This document shows positions 28,234-39,783 of a stretch of 59,932 nucleotides of DNA, one piece after another. The stretch spans positions 1 to 59,932 of IMG/VR virus record IMGVR_UViG_3300042560_001663; one strand, 5' to 3'. Made by a program: the position numbers and the translations under genes. The stretch is from a virus. Positions within the stretch are counted from its first letter, which is position 1, and the number at the start of each line of letters is the position of its first letter. The notes under the pieces are model-generated. The model made no database searches. It was not told the DNA's origin and saw nothing but the letters and a program-made list of their open reading frames with translations.

Positions 28234-28257
28234 TGTGCCAGTTTCTTAACTGTCACA
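28234..28257 (-). promoter_or_regulatory. Boundary box H (TGTGACA-N10-TGGCACA)
   Basis: The stop codon of the methyltransferase gene is inside the left arm. A second TGGCACC copy follows 12 bases later, then CCTGTATTCTATAGAAG upstream of the 117-aa gene. Confidence 0.6.
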
Positions 28258-28981
28258 TCATGGCAAGCATTAGTGGTTTGTTTATACGATCTTTAGTAAT
28301 TTGATAGTATTTCTCATCACTTTCAATGCCAATAAAGTTTCTGTTTGTATTCACGCAAGCAACACCAGTTGTTCCCGAACCCATCGTATTATCAAGCACA
28401 GTATCACCTTCATTGGTATAAGTTTTGATTAAATACTCCATCAAATCTACTGGTTTTTGTGTAGGGTGCAATCCCTTTTCTTGTTTGAATCGCAACACTG
28501 TTTTAGGATATCTTGATCCATCTGGATTATCCCGATGTTTGCTCTTTGCATTACCATAAACCTCACCAATCTTACTGGTATCTGATGAGAACCCACTGTA
28601 AGGAGTTGAATACCACATTTGTGGGTTATATATGGGTTTCTTGCGATAAAAAACTAAAATGTTTTCGTGTGATTTGAGAGGCATCACTTTTGCGTTCATA
28701 GGATTGGTTCCTTGTGGTTTTTCCCAGATCCATTCATAACGAAAGTTCTCAAGATTAGATGCTGCAAGTATAGTTGTGAATGGTTGTGCTGCAGTGAACA
28801 CCATTGCACCATCTTCCTTGCAGATTCTGTTATATTGCCCCCACAATTTGTCTAGAGGAATAATAGAATCCCATTTACAGGCAGTTGTTCCGTATGGCAA
28901 ATCTACCAACACCATATCAACAGAATTATCTGCAAGTGTTGGTAGAATATCTAAACAATCACCTAGATGAAGATTTACCAT
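28253..28981 (-). CDS. DNA methyltransferase, beta-class N6-adenine/N4-cytosine type (242 aa)
   Basis: The catalytic motif appears near the N terminus as VDLPYGTT (residues 26-33, a DLPY variant of DPPY). The AdoMet-binding motif is near the C terminus as DNTMGSGTTGVAC (about 197-209) followed by FIGIESDEKYY. Catalytic before cofactor motif defines the beta class (like YhdJ-type adenine methylases). It overlaps the end of a predicted PD-(D/E)XK nuclease gene by 7 bases, the usual arrangement of a type II restriction-modification pair. It could instead protect phage DNA from host restriction. The sequence specificity cannot be read. Confidence 0.9.
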   Translation of the reverse strand: MVNLHLGDCLDILPTLADNSVDMVLVDLPYGTTACKWDSIIPLDKLWGQYNRICKEDGAMVFTAAQPFTTILAASNLENFRYEWIWEKPQGTNPMNAKVMPLKSHENILVFYRKKPIYNPQMWYSTPYSGFSSDTSKIGEVYGNAKSKHRDNPDGSRYPKTVLRFKQEKGLHPTQKPVDLMEYLIKTYTNEGDTVLDNTMGSGTTGVACVNTNRNFIGIESDEKYYQITKDRINKPLMLAMM

Positions 28982-29511
28982 TGATCCAGAGACTTTACGA
29001 ACGACATACTCTTTAATTTATCGATCTTTGTGCAGATATAATCATCATTCCCAATAGATTTGCCACCTTGTTGAGGAGCAAACACACATTCATCACTTTT
29101 AAGATGTTGAATAAAATCATCTTTGGTGAACCAAAAGAAACGGCAGTCCTCTTCAGTTGGATTGATTCCAAAAAACACAAGACGTTCCCAATCTTTATCT
29201 TTTGAGACGTGATTGATGATAAACTGATCTTCTTTCACACCACCTTTTTTGTCCCGAGTTGCAAGAGAAAACTTGATCTCTGTCATTATACCATCAATCA
29301 ACCTATCGTGTCCAGCAGTGGAAGTTTTTGCTCTTTTAACTTCACTACACCTTGCCTCAAAGTATTTGGACACAAAACGTTCACCAAACTCACCTTTTTG
29401 CTTGGGAGACATAAAAACGTAACTTTGAAAGGGTGTTCCAATCCAGGGATCTTGCACATTTTTATTGATATAATCTTGAAGAGATCCATCAATAAAAATA
29501 GAATCAAACAT
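28975..29511 (-). CDS. Predicted PD-(D/E)XK restriction endonuclease-like protein (178 aa)
   Basis: The ATG at 29511 follows AGAGGAAC and the upstream TAA; a TTG at 29520 is a worse start. The core reads KGEFGERFVSKYFEARC (helix with E41/E44), then GHDRLIDGIMTEIKFSLATR: D69/D73 and E78-x-K80 fit the D...ExK catalytic signature. A C-terminal basic helix region follows. The protein sits directly before a DNA methyltransferase gene with a 7-base overlap, which strongly suggests a restriction partner. No named family is recognised, and catalysis is inferred from motif only. Confidence 0.7.
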   Translation of the reverse strand: MFDSIFIDGSLQDYINKNVQDPWIGTPFQSYVFMSPKQKGEFGERFVSKYFEARCSEVKRAKTSTAGHDRLIDGIMTEIKFSLATRDKKGGVKEDQFIINHVSKDKDWERLVFFGINPTEEDCRFFWFTKDDFIQHLKSDECVFAPQQGGKSIGNDDYICTKIDKLKSMSFVKSLDQW

Positions 29512-29513
29512 TT

Positions 29514-29768
29514 TTACCAAGTTCCTCTTTGAATGTGAATCTTTTTGATTTCCTGATAAAGAAATTGACGAAGTTTAGTGTCTGTGGTGTTATCAAAAGC
29601 ATAATACAGACGATTCAAGTATTCTTGCTGTGTGATGCCAATGTTACCATTCCCACCCAAATCATTGAGTGAAGAACCTCCGATAGACTTTCTCCTGCCG
29701 AAGTTTCCTGTCACATTGCCAGATGTTCTCAGTTTGGGACGAATCTTTGAGAGATTAGAGTATGTCAT
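29514..29768 (-). CDS. Hypothetical basic protein (84 aa)
   Basis: The ATG at 29768 overlaps the upstream stop: MTYSNLSKIRPKLRTSGNVT, a Gly/Ser/Arg-rich stretch (GNFGRRKSIGGSSLNDLG) then a helical C-terminal half (QQEYLNRLYYAF, TKLRQFLYQEIKKI). Basic and probably partly disordered. It immediately precedes the nuclease-methyltransferase pair and may belong to that transcript. Function unknown. Confidence 0.7.
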   Translation of the reverse strand: MTYSNLSKIRPKLRTSGNVTGNFGRRKSIGGSSLNDLGGNGNIGITQQEYLNRLYYAFDNTTDTKLRQFLYQEIKKIHIQRGTW

Positions 29769-31139: not shown

Positions 31140-31526
31140 TCAAGTGTTTGGATGTCTAATATGTGTGTCTGTAGTTGAGAAATCTTTGTTCTTTCCTTTA
31201 TTTGCCTGGAATCCGTGCGATTTATAGAACTTTGCTAATTTTTCTTTCTTTCCTTTTTCTGGTGCTTGATTTAATGTAATTCTTTTGCCTTGTTTATCAG
31301 CATACTTTGATAATCCTTTCATAATTCTTCCACCAACACCTTGTCCACGTTTTTCTGGTGGAATCCAGATATTGTGTAGACGAATGTTGCCAGATTTGTC
31401 ACTGTGAGAAGCATCAACATTTACACCACGATGTTTTTTACCATATGCTCTTGATATTTTGTTCAAAACCTCTTGTGGTGGTTTTGCTGCTTTTGCTTCT
31501 TGAAGAAATTGTGAGAAAGTTTTCAT
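31140..31526 (-). CDS. GNAT acetyltransferase with capsid-targeting-like N terminus (128 aa)
   Basis: The C-terminal two thirds form a small GNAT domain: NIRLHNIWIPPEKRGQGVGG carries the acetyl-CoA-binding RGxGxGG loop (about 60-66), and KLAKFYKSHGF is the usual final strand-helix. The N terminus is MKTFSQFLQEAKAA, which resembles T4 capsid-targeting sequences (MKTYQEFIAE-like) and ends in LQE|A, a fit to the gp21 prohead-protease site. The ATG at 31526 is chosen for this reason over a GTG at 31535. Inference: the enzyme may be packaged in the head and delivered into the host. It follows a late-promoted gene by 5 bases. Confidence 0.75.
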   Translation of the reverse strand: MKTFSQFLQEAKAAKPPQEVLNKISRAYGKKHRGVNVDASHSDKSGNIRLHNIWIPPEKRGQGVGGRIMKGLSKYADKQGKRITLNQAPEKGKKEKLAKFYKSHGFQANKGKNKDFSTTDTHIRHPNT

Positions 31527-31531
31527 TTTTA

Positions 31532-32227
31532 TCACTCTGCTTCATATTCTTCTCTAACAGGTGCATTGCTACGATCCACAAAAGATTGTCTTGTGACTTT
31601 TCTTGATGCAGATTTAGTTGCTGGTTTCTTTTTACCTTGAGTTGCATCCTCTATATCTTTCTCAAGTTGATTCGCAAATCTTGATAGAAAACCAGTTCTT
31701 GCTAACTTAACATCACTTGGATTTCTTGCTGCTTCATCAACTTCATATTCTTCTCTTGCAACATCAGATTGATACCTTTTTGCACTTGCCATTTGCTTTA
31801 ATCGTGCAAGTTGCTGCATCTTTTTGATTTTTCTTTTCTCTTCTGGTGTTGGTGGTGCTTGTGTTTCAGTTTCTTCTTTTGTTAAATGTGGTGCTGCTTT
31901 GTATCCTTTGTGTCCTGCCTGATAGTTTTGCCATGCTTTTGTGTTTGCTTTTCTATCTGCTGCAGTTACAGTCATTGAAGTATCTTCTGGTGCTTTCTTT
32001 TCACCACCATACACAACCTTCTCACAAATACCTACAAACTCCTCAAATGTTCTTGCTCTTGGATTATAGTAAGGAGTGACATCAGAACGATACTGAGTTC
32101 CACCTACATTCTTACCAAGATGCTTTTCTTGTCTTCTCTTTTTCTCTAGTTCGTATTGCTGTTTTGCGGTTTTTGGTTTAGGAATAGGTTGTCCAGTGAT
32201 TCCTACTTCTGTTTTGTCCTTTGCCAT
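31532..32227 (-). CDS. Lys/Arg-rich protein with late promoter (231 aa), putative internal virion protein
   Basis: MAKDKTEVGITGQPIPKPKT, then a charged, largely helical and probably disordered protein with runs such as YELEKKRRQEKHLGKN and KKKPATKSASRKVTRQSF. An internal segment ARTFEEFVGICEKV resembles the MKTFxxF capsid-targeting start of neighbours. It is preceded by an exact TATAAATA late promoter and co-transcribed with the GNAT. A packaged, nucleic-acid-binding internal head protein is my best guess. Confidence 0.65.
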   Translation of the reverse strand: MAKDKTEVGITGQPIPKPKTAKQQYELEKKRRQEKHLGKNVGGTQYRSDVTPYYNPRARTFEEFVGICEKVVYGGEKKAPEDTSMTVTAADRKANTKAWQNYQAGHKGYKAAPHLTKEETETQAPPTPEEKRKIKKMQQLARLKQMASAKRYQSDVAREEYEVDEAARNPSDVKLARTGFLSRFANQLEKDIEDATQGKKKPATKSASRKVTRQSFVDRSNAPVREEYEAE

Positions 32228-32259: not shown

Positions 32260-32814
32260 TCAATCAATCGGAAGTTTTGCTTGTGAGTTACTCTTTGGGA
32301 TGATAAGTTCTTCCATAATGATTTGCTTTGGTAGAAAGTTCCAACAATAGTAACTAGAACTGAACGTAATCTTGTCGTTTGGTCTACCATCAGGACTGTG
32401 AAACTTCATCCGTTTGTCAAACATCAACAGTTGAAGATCCTTGTCCTTGAATAACTGTTTCGGAGCACTATCATTCAACCAAGTGTTAGTCATAATGAGT
32501 GCAAATGGTTTGCCAAATGATAATGCCCTCTCAAAGAACTTACGTTTGTTTGTGAATGGTGGATTGGATACAATTACATCCCATTTGAGTGGTTCAAAAT
32601 CAAAGAAATCTTGACCATAACGGATGTGGGAGTAGACTACATCATTCTGCTCACCAATCTGCTTGACAAACTCACTATTTGGAGTATCAAATGGGCACCA
32701 GACGATTACATCTTTGGGAATGTATTTCAGAATGGGAGTAACACCGTATTTTGGAGTATAACATTCGTCGTTGTTACCCTCCGAATACATCAGTTTGCCA
32801 CTGTCAAGAGTCAT
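32260..32814 (-). CDS. Small DNA adenine methyltransferase-like protein (184 aa)
   Basis: DECYTPKYGVTPILKYIP, then VIVWCPFDTPNSEFVKQIGE (cofactor-side motif of Rossmann methylases) and WDVIVSNPPFTNKRKFFERA (NPPF catalytic motif, about residues 82-87). The order and small size match phage NPPF/NPPY N6-adenine methylase-like proteins. The glycine-rich AdoMet loop is atypical (CPFDTPNSEF), so activity is uncertain. It overlaps the nuclease gene upstream by 4 bases and completes a ligase-nuclease-methyltransferase cassette. Confidence 0.75.
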   Translation of the reverse strand: MTLDSGKLMYSEGNNDECYTPKYGVTPILKYIPKDVIVWCPFDTPNSEFVKQIGEQNDVVYSHIRYGQDFFDFEPLKWDVIVSNPPFTNKRKFFERALSFGKPFALIMTNTWLNDSAPKQLFKDKDLQLLMFDKRMKFHSPDGRPNDKITFSSSYYCWNFLPKQIIMEELIIPKSNSQAKLPID

Positions 32815-33308
32815 ACAATTTGAGTTCCGTATTGATAGATTTCTTTGCGGGTCAGATTACCAGAGAGACGGGGATCTTTGTGCTTACCGTGAATCTTACG
32901 TTCCCAATCTTTCTTAAGTTTGGGAAGCAGAATCATCAGTACATCATCACCAGTCAGTTTCCACACTTCAACGACTTTGCCACCATCATATCGGGCAATA
33001 TAGTGATTGGAATACTTACCAAGTTTCTCCTCAATCAGATAACGTTCTTGCTCTTCCCAGGTATTTTGGACACTGATACCATTATAAGTCCCATTGATAG
33101 ATTTAGCAATGGTAGATTTATACTCACATTCACCATCTTGATCCACAGCATCAGCACCCGAATAAGTTTCTGCTACTTGATGTCCAAGAATACTAGCAAG
33201 ATGTATCTCACGGGAACGAGCATAACTGAAAGGATCTCCCCAACCTTGTTCTTCACAAAGTTGATACATTTCTTCAAACAGTTGTTGAAATCTTTGTTCG
33301 GGGGTCAT
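32811..33308 (-). CDS. Predicted PD-(D/E)XK nuclease (165 aa) in ligase-methyltransferase cassette
   Basis: With the ATG at 33308 (a GTG at 33317 would overlap the ligase stop), REIHLASILGHQVAETYSGA is followed by DAVDQDGECEYKSTIA: helix Glu34, Asp53/Asp56 and Glu62-Tyr-Lys64 form a D...ExK core, as in many type II restriction enzymes. A C-terminal region rich in Lys/Arg (KDWERKIHGKHKDPRLSG) could bind DNA. It is flanked by 4-base overlaps with a methyltransferase-like gene and a ligase-fold gene. Family not recognised; cleavage is inferred. Confidence 0.65.
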   Translation of the reverse strand: MTPEQRFQQLFEEMYQLCEEQGWGDPFSYARSREIHLASILGHQVAETYSGADAVDQDGECEYKSTIAKSINGTYNGISVQNTWEEQERYLIEEKLGKYSNHYIARYDGGKVVEVWKLTGDDVLMILLPKLKKDWERKIHGKHKDPRLSGNLTRKEIYQYGTQIV

Positions 33309-33313
33309 ATGAG

Positions 33314-34219
33314 TCACCAGTGCTTTGCAAGTGTAAAGTTCATTCTACTAAACTCATCACGATTCACGATTTTGTAACTTCCAAACTGATTGTGCATTAC
33401 AAATCCTTCGTGCTCTGAATCTTTACCATCAATTTTGCAAGTGATGTTATCATCAGATTCAATGTAGAAGAACATATCCATCTTGATAGATTCAATCAAC
33501 TTCCACAATCGCAGCAGGTTGATGTCAACATCATAATTTTCTGCGATTTCGTGTTCGTCAACCTCTTTACCCTCACGAATGTAAGAATTGATGATTTTTT
33601 TGAGTTCTTTTGCTTGTTTGTCACTCACAAAGGTGCAAAGTGTGCTCATTTGACGTGCAAACCCACAAAACTCTTCAATATCATCACGATAAGGACAAAT
33701 TGTTGCTGTTGGTTGAACAAACAAACAGTTTTTTGTGCTGTTCAGTTTCTTCAACAAAGGAGCAGCAGTCATCTCACGAATATCATCAGCACCACTGTAA
33801 ATTGTGTGAGGTGCAATGATAATGTCCTGACGAATTGGTGAAGAGAACTTATAGGTAATTGTGTTAGGAGTGAATGTATCTGCTCCACTCCCGAAACCAA
33901 TCCAATCACCCTGAATCACTGCTTTAGTGCGGGGCAGAAAGTCAAGACAATAAATGAGAATCTGTGCTACCTTTGGTTGATGTCCAAAGTGAGTAAAGAT
34001 GTCATCTTGATTGTAGCAAAGACGAATCTTTTGCTTATTAAATGCTGCTTTAGTGCAGACAAAGAACTTTCCATTCTGAGGATTTGTACCCCAAACAATA
34101 GCAGGAGCACCATCAATTTTCACACTGACATTAGAGTCAGCAGTAAACCAATTCAGAACACTCAAATCTCCTGTCAAGATAGAATCTTCAGGATGTTCCA
34201 AGTGGAGGTTTTGAGTCAT
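33314..34219 (-). CDS. Ligase-fold nucleotidyltransferase, DUF6267-like (301 aa)
   Basis: Residues 5-11 (LHLEHPE) and the motif VKIDGAPAIVWG (KxDG at K34) give the adenylylation site of the ATP-dependent ligase/capping superfamily. AVIQGDWIGFG resembles motif III, EGFVMH (about 271-276) motif IV, and YKIVNR (about 282-287) motif V. I recall this arrangement in cyanophage DUF6267 proteins. The protein lacks an obvious OB-fold domain after motif V, so it is a minimal ligase-like enzyme. It heads the cassette with a nuclease and a methyltransferase, suggesting a nick-and-seal or DNA/RNA end-repair role. Substrate unknown. Confidence 0.75.
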   Translation of the reverse strand: MTQNLHLEHPEDSILTGDLSVLNWFTADSNVSVKIDGAPAIVWGTNPQNGKFFVCTKAAFNKQKIRLCYNQDDIFTHFGHQPKVAQILIYCLDFLPRTKAVIQGDWIGFGSGADTFTPNTITYKFSSPIRQDIIIAPHTIYSGADDIREMTAAPLLKKLNSTKNCLFVQPTATICPYRDDIEEFCGFARQMSTLCTFVSDKQAKELKKIINSYIREGKEVDEHEIAENYDVDINLLRLWKLIESIKMDMFFYIESDDNITCKIDGKDSEHEGFVMHNQFGSYKIVNRDEFSRMNFTLAKHW

Positions 34220-34240: not shown

Positions 34241-34269
34241 ATCATAAAGTAAAAAAAGGAACCTTGTGG
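34241..34269 (-). promoter_or_regulatory. Terminator-embedded promoter K (CCACAA-N17-TATGAT)
   Basis: The weak -35 lies in the loop of the terminator at 34251-34275, and TATGAT follows the T run. It is positioned to start the ligase-nuclease-methyltransferase transcript. Confidence 0.55.
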
Positions 34270-34275
34270 GTTCCT
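34251..34275 (-). terminator. Intrinsic terminator before ligase cassette
   Basis: Perfect 7-bp stem AGGAACC/GGTTCCT, 5-base loop, then seven T on the minus strand. It ends the transcript of the 69-aa gene. Confidence 0.8.
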
Positions 34276-34288
34276 CTGTGACAGTTTA

Positions 34289-34897: not shown

Positions 34898-35254
34898 TCA
34901 ACGAGACATAATTGCTTTTAATCTTGCTCTTTTTGCTGTTACTTCTGCACCTGCTTCGTGTTCCATTTCTCCGTGTGCTTGACGGATTTGCATACCTTTC
35001 CAACGGGCAGATGCTCTGGCAACCTGTTTGTTATACTCATTTGGTTGCATTTTAGGATGTTGCTCTGCTTGTAGTTCTCTCTTTATTTCTTTTTTTAATG
35101 CTTCTCTTTCTTGTGCTGCTGCTTGGTTTTCTCTTTGTGCAGATTGGTAGTCAGCAACTTTTTGTTTTTGCTTTGCCATTAAATCAAGTTGTCTCTGACG
35201 CAACTCTTGTCTGCGGGATTCAATGTCTTCATTAAATTGCTGAAAAGTCTTCAT
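34898..35254 (-). CDS. Charged coiled-coil protein with MKTFQQF start and late promoter (118 aa)
   Basis: MKTFQQFNEDIESRRQELRQ is followed by a long Gln/Glu/Arg/Lys-rich helix (DLMAKQKQKVADYQSAQREN) and a basic C-terminal third. The first seven residues match the capsid-targeting-like start of the GNAT at 31526, though no clean LxE|A site follows. A near-exact late promoter (AATAAATA) precedes it. I suggest a packaged internal head protein; T4 IP proteins are of similar size and charge. Confidence 0.65.
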   Translation of the reverse strand: MKTFQQFNEDIESRRQELRQRQLDLMAKQKQKVADYQSAQRENQAAAQEREALKKEIKRELQAEQHPKMQPNEYNKQVARASARWKGMQIRQAHGEMEHEAGAEVTAKRARLKAIMSR

Positions 35255-37777: not shown

Positions 37778-38347
37778 TCAGAAGTCCAAATAATCCTCTA
37801 TTGCTTCATCAATCTTTTGAGAAAGTGAAGTCGGAGGAAGAATAGGATTAACTTCTCCAATGTCACACTGATAATAGTCTCCCAAATTAAGTTCAATCAT
37901 TGCACCATCTGCACCCTCTTGATAGAGTGAACGTGCAACTTCATCTTCCAGAACAACAACCCGACGTGCTGTCAAATCAAGAACCAGAAGATAATCATAG
38001 GTAGAGTCTTTTTTGAAATCCTCTACAGTTTTTGTTTCAGACAGAAAAGACTTGACCTTGAACTTTTTAGTTGCGTGAACATCTTTACGTTTGTAGAAAA
38101 GATCCTTTCCCATCTTCATCTCAATTCGGATGAAGTTTCCAGTTTCATCTTCCCAGATGAAATCATAACCAGTTTTGTCAACCCTGACGAGATCAGAAAA
38201 CTTTGCAAGTCCCTTTTCAACAGCAGTGGCACGGGCAAAGTTATCTGCATTGGAGGAGAAACCTTTGTCGGAGTAGAGAGAATCTACAACTCCAAAAACT
38301 TTGTTCCAGTTCACACCAGTTTCAAGGTGATCAATTAGATGAGTCAT
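37778..38347 (-). CDS. Predicted PD-(D/E)XK nuclease next to helicase (189 aa)
   Basis: Start taken at the ATG at 38347 (MTHLIDHLETGVNWNKVFGV), since the -10-like TATATT lies just before the alternative ATG at 38365. ATAVEKGLAKFSDLVRV (helix Glu44), then TGYDFIWEDE and NFIRIEMKMGKD give Asp62...Glu76-Met-Lys78, a clear D...ExK core. DYLLVLDLTARRVVVLED is the strand that often follows. It lies downstream of a DEAH helicase with one small gene between, resembling split helicase-nuclease restriction or repair systems. Catalysis is inferred. Confidence 0.65.
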   Translation of the reverse strand: MTHLIDHLETGVNWNKVFGVVDSLYSDKGFSSNADNFARATAVEKGLAKFSDLVRVDKTGYDFIWEDETGNFIRIEMKMGKDLFYKRKDVHATKKFKVKSFLSETKTVEDFKKDSTYDYLLVLDLTARRVVVLEDEVARSLYQEGADGAMIELNLGDYYQCDIGEVNPILPPTSLSQKIDEAIEDYLDF

Positions 38348-38389
38348 AGTGTCAGTAGTGGACATATGCAATATACACAAGATGAGAGG

Positions 38390-38560
38390 TCAATCAATAG
38401 GTAATGTGCCACTTGATTGACTGGCACAGTGCTGTTTGATATACTTTTGTGCCTGCAATGAAGTGTTTACAACATCAAGTTGCCGTCCATTGTGAATAAT
38501 CATCAGTTTCTTCCCAAAAGGAACCGCAGCATAATCACCTTTAATAAATCCTTCTTTCAT
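38390..38560 (-). CDS. Conserved cyanophage small protein (56 aa)
   Basis: MKEGFIKGDYAAVPFGKKLM, then IIHNGRQLDVVNTSLQAQKY. This small beta-rich protein (KKLMIxHNGxQLDVVNTSxQA) is familiar from cyanophages. The ATG overlaps the helicase stop (ATGA). Its last codons contain the boundary box. Function unknown. Confidence 0.75.
   Translation of the reverse strand: MKEGFIKGDYAAVPFGKKLMIIHNGRQLDVVNTSLQAQKYIKQHCASQSSGTLPID
38405..38428 (-). promoter_or_regulatory. Boundary box N (perfect TGTGCCA-N10-TGGCACA)
   Basis: A perfect inverted repeat, here inside the last codons of the 56-aa gene. TTGACC, then TATATT, follow toward the nuclease-like gene, but spacing is not ideal. Confidence 0.5.
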
Positions 38561-39783
38561 CGTTTAATAGTAGAAATTGCTGGTTCTCCGTGTTGAAATA
38601 CAGTATCAACAACGTTCTGAATCTTCTTGGCAGTGCTGATACCAACCGAATTAAAAGTGGGAATCACCACAAGTCCATAAGATTTGTGATATTCTGATAG
38701 ATTGCCTGGTGTGATTGTCCCATTGCGAAGTCCTGCAGCATCTTTGTGATGTAATCTTACCACTCTTCCAATCGTTTGGCAGATACCGATTGCATCCATT
38801 GAACGCATAAAGATGACTGCTTCCAAACCTGAAACATTGATACCTTCAGACAGAATAGAATGATGAAGCAAAACAAACTTCTTAGAGTCATCCTTACTCC
38901 ATTCGTGCAGAGTATCAAAGAACTCTTCACGATTGACTTTCTTACCATCAATAATCGCACCAGTCTTAGATGTAATCACCATCCAAGAGTATCCACGTTG
39001 CTCAAGTTGAATACAGAAAGGAGTTTGTGACATCAAAGCAGTGATTTGTTTGGTTGCTTTGGCACATACAAGAACCTTAGAAACTGCTGCCTCATCAATA
39101 CTTTCCAGTAGATGATTACAGTCACGTTCAAACACATTGGTGCTGTCCAATGAAACTTGCTTGGCAATAATCTTTGGTGGAATGATATAACCTTCCCGAA
39201 CCATTCTTGGTGCAGGAACATTTGCAATGATGTTACCATAAACCTGAACATTGTTCATTCCAGGTTTCTTGGGTGTGGAAGAATACTTTGGAGTTGCAGT
39301 GTAGAAGTAACAACGTTCTGACTGTTCACTGAAGTATTCTACCGCAGGATAAAAGTTCTTCTGCACCGAATTGTGTGCTTCATCAAAGTGAATTGTATGA
39401 ACTTTGATGCCCGACTCCATCACCTTATGCAGAGAGTGATAGGTAGTGAAGATGAGTTTATGAGTTTTGGTATGAAACCACCATTTGAACAAAATATCGG
39501 AGTTTGTTGAGGATGTATGATGTGTCTCTCCCGAGTGACAATGATACACAGAAGCATTTGTGATGTGCTCCAGATACTCAGAAGAGAGTTGATTCGCAAG
39601 CAAAATTCGCGGAGCAACAACTACAACAGTCTGAGGAGTTTCTGATTCAAACTGAGAGATTGTATTTGCAATTCCTACAAGAGTCTTACCTGCACCTGTG
39701 GTTGCACAAATGATACCTTTCTTGTGTTCTTTCTGAGCATCACAGCACTCAATCTGATGTGGACGAAGTGAAACAGAAACCAT
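38557..39783 (-). CDS. Superfamily 2 DEAH helicase, UvsW/type-III-like (408 aa)
   Basis: Motif I is CATTGAGKTLVG (27-34), Ia VVVVAPRILLANQ, II FDEAHNS (DEAH at 134-137), III YTATPK, V SEGINVSGLEAVIF and VI QTIGRVVRL. All helicase motifs of SF2 are present. There is an N-terminal Q-like element (LRPHQIECC). The length is shorter than T4 UvsW (about 500 aa). It could act in branched-DNA repair (UvsW-like) or as the motor of a restriction-like complex with the nuclease at 37778. Its partner cannot be decided from sequence. Confidence 0.9.
   Translation of the reverse strand: MVSVSLRPHQIECCDAQKEHKKGIICATTGAGKTLVGIANTISQFESETPQTVVVVAPRILLANQLSSEYLEHITNASVYHCHSGETHHTSSTNSDILFKWWFHTKTHKLIFTTYHSLHKVMESGIKVHTIHFDEAHNSVQKNFYPAVEYFSEQSERCYFYTATPKYSSTPKKPGMNNVQVYGNIIANVPAPRMVREGYIIPPKIIAKQVSLDSTNVFERDCNHLLESIDEAAVSKVLVCAKATKQITALMSQTPFCIQLEQRGYSWMVITSKTGAIIDGKKVNREEFFDTLHEWSKDDSKKFVLLHHSILSEGINVSGLEAVIFMRSMDAIGICQTIGRVVRLHHKDAAGLRNGTITPGNLSEYHKSYGLVVIPTFNSVGISTAKKIQNVVDTVFQHGEPAISTIKR

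Follow-up and report, generated by a model that had tools for sequence, protein, structure and literature searches.

A compact PvuII-like nuclease and mini-methylase gene pair, probably of restriction-modification type, in T4-like cyanophages

The sequence analyzed here (the window) is an IMG/VR virus record of 59,932 bases that contains T4-like cyanophage genes, and its gp6 baseplate wedge gene has its closest relatives in Synechococcus phages. Three ORFs on its minus strand, which we call P1, P2 and P3, run head to tail; they are genuine genes and had been read correctly in the original prediction. The features of the locus are as follows.

33314-34219, minus strand: P1, a DUF6267 ligase-fold nucleotidyltransferase-like protein of 301 amino acids (PF19782, AF2 model, VIA-align, motifs)
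32811-33317, minus strand: P2, a PvuII-like PD-(D/E)xK restriction-endonuclease-like protein, 168 amino acids counted from a GTG codon (PF09225, AF2, Foldseek, VIA-align)
32260-32814, minus strand: P3, a small gamma-type adenine-methylase-like protein of 184 amino acids (phrog_799, motifs X, I and IV)
32811-32814, minus strand: four-base ATGA overlap of the P2 stop and P3 start codons (from the sequence; present in 59 of the 62 homologous loci whose P3 start has a mapped first residue)
34255-34277, minus strand: terminator-like hairpin with a T-run, located between P1 and the ORF upstream of it (9 pairs, 4 of them G-C)

All three genes had been described as overlapping or nearly so. The ATGA overlap between P2 and P3 stands, and it likely couples their translation, but P1 and P2 share GTGA only when the GTG codon is taken as the start of P2. 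The majority of P2 homologs begin at the equivalent of M4 (ATG, position 33308), which is the probable start and would set P2 a few bases apart from P1. The sequence motifs originally pointed out are all present: K34-x-D36-G37, EGFVMH and YKIVNR in P1, D56...E65-x-K67 in P2 (E65 and K67 were formerly called E62 and K64, in a numbering that begins at M4), and NPPF in P3. The claim that the genes have their own terminator and promoter is half supported at most. The hairpin (34277-34255, minus strand) does lie just upstream of P1 and is the sole one in the 2.8 kb scanned, although with 1.5 expected in shuffled sequences this is a chance-level frequency, and the gap between it and P1 (34219-34255) has no convincing sigma-70 promoter, its promoter-like matches being as numerous as expected from shuffling. 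Another ORF, P4, starts 33 bases past P3, so the operon may extend beyond P3.

P2 is best read, from profile matches and its structural model, as a PvuII-like PD-(D/E)xK endonuclease. It matches the Pfam family PF09225 (Endonuc-PvuII) with an E-value of 3e-4 and 21.2 bits, below the curated cut-off of 25. The same family is matched by 25 of 32 P2 homologs, other members too scoring under the cut-off, and we therefore call P2 PvuII-like and regard it as a divergent branch. Its AF2 model, made with 32 homologs, has a mean pLDDT of 93.3 and carries the nuclease fold that had been predicted: in a Foldseek search against the PDB the top 12 matches are all PvuII (best E = 1.6e-7, TM 0.57-0.67 by query length), and VIA-align superposes P2 on PvuII with a Z-score of 14.2 over 148 residues (rmsd 3.7). 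The residues D56, E65 and K67 are invariant in the 32 homologs, and they align with the catalytic residues D58, E68 and K70 of PvuII, whose sequence was checked against PDB entries for this alignment. Sequence identity between the two proteins is about 25%. Direct sequence-profile comparisons are limited by the shallow P2 alignment–PvuII was not found when it was run as a profile against PDB sequences, and hhalign gave an E-value of 0.0037 with a probability of only 9%–so the case for the identity of P2 is built on Pfam and structure. The PvuII residues that contact DNA in recognition of CAGCTG, which we take to be D34, H84/H85 and N140/N141, are not conserved in P2, where other, largely family-invariant, residues replace them, and the target of P2 is therefore predicted to differ from that of PvuII. 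P2 is under strong purifying selection (dN/dS 0.06-0.17). PADLOC gave no match for P2 or P1, and one genome scan with short peptide patterns, which is weak evidence, found no bacterial P2 homologs and so no bacterial R-M context either. The six copies of P2 in phage isolates, with PSSM2_100.1 as that of P-SSM2, are all annotated as hypothetical or predicted proteins.

P3 is methyltransferase-like, as first proposed. Residues 7-174 match the phrog_799 'DNA methyltransferase' profile (E = 3e-34), and among 25 P3 homologs 24 match the EcoRI_methylase family and 23 match Eco57I, in each case weakly; for the P3 of the window itself, all Pfam matches are below the cut-off. Three motifs are invariant, T20-P21 (motif X), C40-P41-F42-D43 (motif I) and N84-P85-P86-F87 (motif IV), and this order X-I-IV with NPPF is that of the gamma class of amino-methylases. 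No obvious target-recognition domain is seen in the 184 residues. The gene is under strong purifying selection (dN/dS 0.05-0.12), and it has relatives with 29-50% identity in Thermus, Fusobacterium, Streptococcus and other phages. In some contigs P3 has no adjacent P2 (L096, L106, L123, L136, L137 and L141) and, judged by eye, overlaps or abuts other genes, coding for an SprT-like (HELTHLRQW), peptide-deformylase-like or ParB-like (DGQHTT) protein. Given such occurrences, P3 may not be specifically tied to P2 and could instead serve phages as a general methylase.

Across viral contigs, P2 and P3 are tightly associated. A scan for P2 found 74 loci, 72 of which have more than 300 bases of sequence downstream. 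P3 lies within 100 bases of P2 in 68 of the 72, with an overlap of exactly four bases in 54, and in 2 more it is over 1 kb away. Among phage isolates, P2 and close relatives of P3 occur in the same six records (P-SSM2, P-SSM5 and P-TIM68). Where the two genes are unlinked they are still usually in one genome, at distances of 6.6 kb in P-SSM2, about 1.1 kb in contig G003 and about 13 kb in G008, and in G022 and G024 they are apart but on one contig. Pairwise distances of P2 and P3 are correlated over 50 loci (r = 0.72). Mean divergence over the same 27 loci is 0.15 for both P2 and P3 compared to 0.44 for P1. This suggests that the spread of the pair postdates the divergence of the genomes.

The strongest alternative to an R-M-like pair, which we nevertheless consider unlikely, is that P3 acts as an orphan methylase and P2 as a nuclease on its own, against which the phage is protected in some other way, their adjacency merely reflecting a shared variable region. 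The contigs that have P3 with other overlapping partners and no visible P2 would fit this, as would the 6.6 kb between the two genes in P-SSM2, and in P-TIM68 a methylase with a TSPPY motif lies directly upstream of P2. The adjacency in 68 of 72 loci, with a mostly identical ATGA overlap, and the co-divergence and co-presence of the genes even when unlinked argue against it. The TSPPY methylase (P-TIM68 gp049) is not a conserved neighbor of P2, and we rejected it as the cognate partner. Nor did palindrome counts in seven P2-bearing and three other phage sequences reveal any P2-specific loss of sites (a weak negative, with degenerate and gapped sites outside the test), which favors protection by methylation over protection by site loss. 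One P2 lineage (L070/L071), represented by records 50 and 17 kb long, has no visible P3. Conversely, P2 is not seen in at least 15 contigs with P3, many of them short; an excess of P3 without P2 is the pattern expected if the nuclease is toxic and the methylase harmless, though fragments cannot prove absence.

The palindrome counts also yielded candidate target sites, all of which we discarded. AGCT is depleted in genomes with or without P2. GTGCAC appeared P2-specific on small data, but P-TIM68, which has P2, contains 16 copies against 28 expected, and the site is also missing from contigs without a visible P2. For AGCGCT the expected number of sites is too small. As a separate observation, CATG is very strongly depleted in the window (17 observed, 182 expected) and likewise in several P3-bearing contigs (G006, G008, G009, G010 and G012), with much weaker depletion in SynMITS9220M01, P-TIM68, P-SSM2 and G005.

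The third gene, P1, has a different history. It matches PF19782 (DUF6267) with an E-value of 1.5e-80, and the ligase fold ascribed to it holds up: although Foldseek detected only a weak likeness to polynucleotide ligases (best E = 0.013), the 50 best VIA-align matches of its AF2 model (pLDDT 90.5) are all ligases, including Naegleria Rnl (Z = 8.5), T4 Rnl1 (7.5) and Rnl2 (7.2). The motif residues K34-x-D36-G37, D105, E271-G272 and K283 are conserved without exception even where identity falls to about 25%, with D105 taking the place of motif III. DUF6267 is found in 369 Synechococcus-phage records and 61 'Cyanophage' records, compared to 373 and 61 for gp6, and nearly all of these records lack P2. 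On the model and this distribution, P1 is probably a separate, unrecognized core ligase-like gene that is near-universal in T4-like cyanophages.

This bears on the proposal that the three genes form one cut, seal and mark cassette, for end repair or counter-defense, rather than a conventional R-M pair. The ligase fold of P1 would suit such a cassette, and in 13 of 39 P2 loci flanked by 2.5 kb of sequence on either side DUF6267 directly adjoins the pair, upstream in 6 and downstream in 7. It is elsewhere within 2.5 kb in 8 loci, however, and farther away or unseen in 18, so that the order of the trio is not conserved as synteny would require. P1 is also far more diverged than the pair, and its distances correlate with those of P2 (r = 0.49), as expected from shared ancestry. 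In P-TIM68 a repeated leader element separates DUF6267 from the pair, a 53-nt repeat being found before the P2-P3 pair, before DUF6267 and after DUF6267. With P1 in an unconserved position and near-universal in phages without P2 or P3, and with a methylase next to the PvuII-like P2 at 68 of 72 loci and co-present with it even when 6.6-13 kb away, we reject the three-gene cassette as very improbable. The true conserved neighbor of DUF6267 is possibly another gene, which follows it in other cyanophages (L215, L216 and L218) and is annotated as cytitidyltransferase (T4-LIKE GC 190).

Two other readings concern P2 only. About as improbable as the cassette, and if anything slightly more so, is that P2 belongs with the BisI-type, modification-dependent nucleases and attacks methylated DNA. 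NhoI and Eco15I are its next-best structural matches (Z about 10.5), and PvuII is their closest canonical relative (PMC11347163), but the PvuII match is clearly higher (Z = 14.2), and a methylase partner in the same cell argues against this reading unless P2 cuts another mark. Least plausible of all is a Holliday-junction-resolvase-like recombination nuclease, as the resolvases Hjc and RecU reach Z-scores of 6-8 (Hjc about 8) whereas PvuII is far ahead over the whole chain and its profile matches 25 of 32 family members.

We conclude that the best reading of the locus, with a probability of roughly 0.77, is that P2 and P3 are a compact, phage-borne, type-II-like R-M pair of T4-like cyanophages, and that P1 is an independent core gene brought next to them, we propose, by chance in this lineage. 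This reading draws on the fold and catalytic triad of P2, the motifs of P3, the coupling of their genes, their co-occurrence, co-divergence and selection, and the loose linkage of P1; from these we infer the enzymatic activities, a shared recognition site and a biological target. P3, as a mini N6-adenine-type methylase, would methylate the phage's own DNA, and P2, presumably a homodimer of PvuII type, would cleave DNA in that cell that lacks methylation. The victim would most likely be the host chromosome, for nucleotide supply and shut-off, and otherwise rival phages. The absence of denA, denB and ndd from cyanomyoviruses (PMC2984593) slightly favors host DNA, but the R-M system of melbournevirus leaves host DNA undegraded (PMC7253447).

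P2 resembles R.PvuII (type IIP, PF09225) in its whole-chain fold, its D...E-x-K residues, its linkage to a methylase gene and its size (168 residues compared to 157), but differs in its low identity of about 25%, its score under the Pfam cut-off, its altered DNA-contact positions and several extra residues inserted close to the recognition region. The PvuII methylase is of m4C type, whereas the NPPF motif of P3 is of m6A type, and unlike PvuII, P2 is carried by a lytic phage and its gene directly overlaps the methylase gene. P3 shares the X-I-IV motif order with NPPF with the phrog_799/EcoRI-methylase family (PF13651), but has 184 residues where M.EcoRI has 326, and in these cyanophages it is paired with a nuclease. 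P1 shares the ligase core fold and the invariant KxDG, EG and K motifs with T4 Rnl1, Rnl2 and Naegleria Rnl, and differs from polynucleotide ligases in having D for E in motif III and in the modest scores of the match (Foldseek E = 0.013, Z = 8.5). Features of type II R-M systems are found at the P2-P3 locus, namely gene linkage (68 of 72 loci) and a putative methylase with (N/D/S)PP(Y/F) and AdoMet motifs. Like chlorovirus CviAI and mel_015/mel_016 of melbournevirus, where the R and M genes are side by side (PMC7253447), the pair would place a restriction enzyme and a methylase on a virus genome, but those are GATC enzymes of eukaryotic giant viruses. As host DNA is not degraded by the melbournevirus enzymes (PMC7253447), their role is not simply transferable to P2 and P3.

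Several other genes in the window deserve mention. A second R-M-like pair is located at 28253-29520 on the minus strand, about 3 kb downstream of P2-P3.

28975-29520, minus strand: R2 (PADLOC REase_II, E = 1.8e-12)
28253-28981, minus strand: M2 (N6_N4_Mtase, E = 1.1e-31; MTase_II, E = 1.5e-87)

R2 overlaps M2, and the two are also neighbors in P-SSM7 and Marine virus AG-345-E15; in ACG-2014f, S-SSM4 and S-ShM2, R2 has no adjacent annotated methylase. A 200-residue protein without a family match (37778-38380, minus strand) has a D...E-x-K-like stretch, GYDFIWEDETGNFIRIEMKMG, and adjoins a DEAD/ResIII helicase gene (38557-39783); it is possibly a third nuclease module. The minus-strand ORFs at 31140-31535 and 34898-35254, one of which codes for a GNAT acetyltransferase, share the N-terminus MKTFxxF..., which in our view resembles the capsid-targeting sequence of T4 internal proteins, and they possibly encode packaged proteins.

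Giant viruses already provide examples of virus-borne R-M pairs (PMC7253447), and jumbo phages have been mentioned as having R-M systems (PMC7824862). What appears to be new is a divergent PvuII-like nuclease together with a mini-methylase in lytic cyanophages; the literature we searched, without REBASE or most subscription papers, contains no description of such a pair in T4-like cyanophages. P-SSM2 and P-TIM68 carry the pair, annotated only as a hypothetical protein and a DNA methyltransferase, so the question can be addressed in isolated model phages.

The DUF6267 fold similarly makes the missing-ligase question testable. Clokie et al. noted that the g30 ligase is missing, and gave as-yet-unidentified distant homologs as one option. 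We found no PF01068 ligase in 12 of 13 isolate genomes searched, nor PF09414 or PF01653 in four of those isolates, and DUF6267 is not named in the literature searched. The freshwater cyanophage S-CRM01 (L219) has a PF01068 DNA ligase domain as well as DUF6267, so DUF6267 does not strictly take the place of DNA ligase. None of denA, denB and ndd is present in cyanomyoviruses, which also mostly lack a recognized DNA ligase, and we raise, as a speculation that is on balance doubtful, the idea that a subset of them cuts the unmarked host chromosome with PvuII-like R-M pairs and that DUF6267 is an active polynucleotide ligase. If true, this would fill two long-standing gaps in T4-like cyanophages, host-DNA degradation and DNA ligase.
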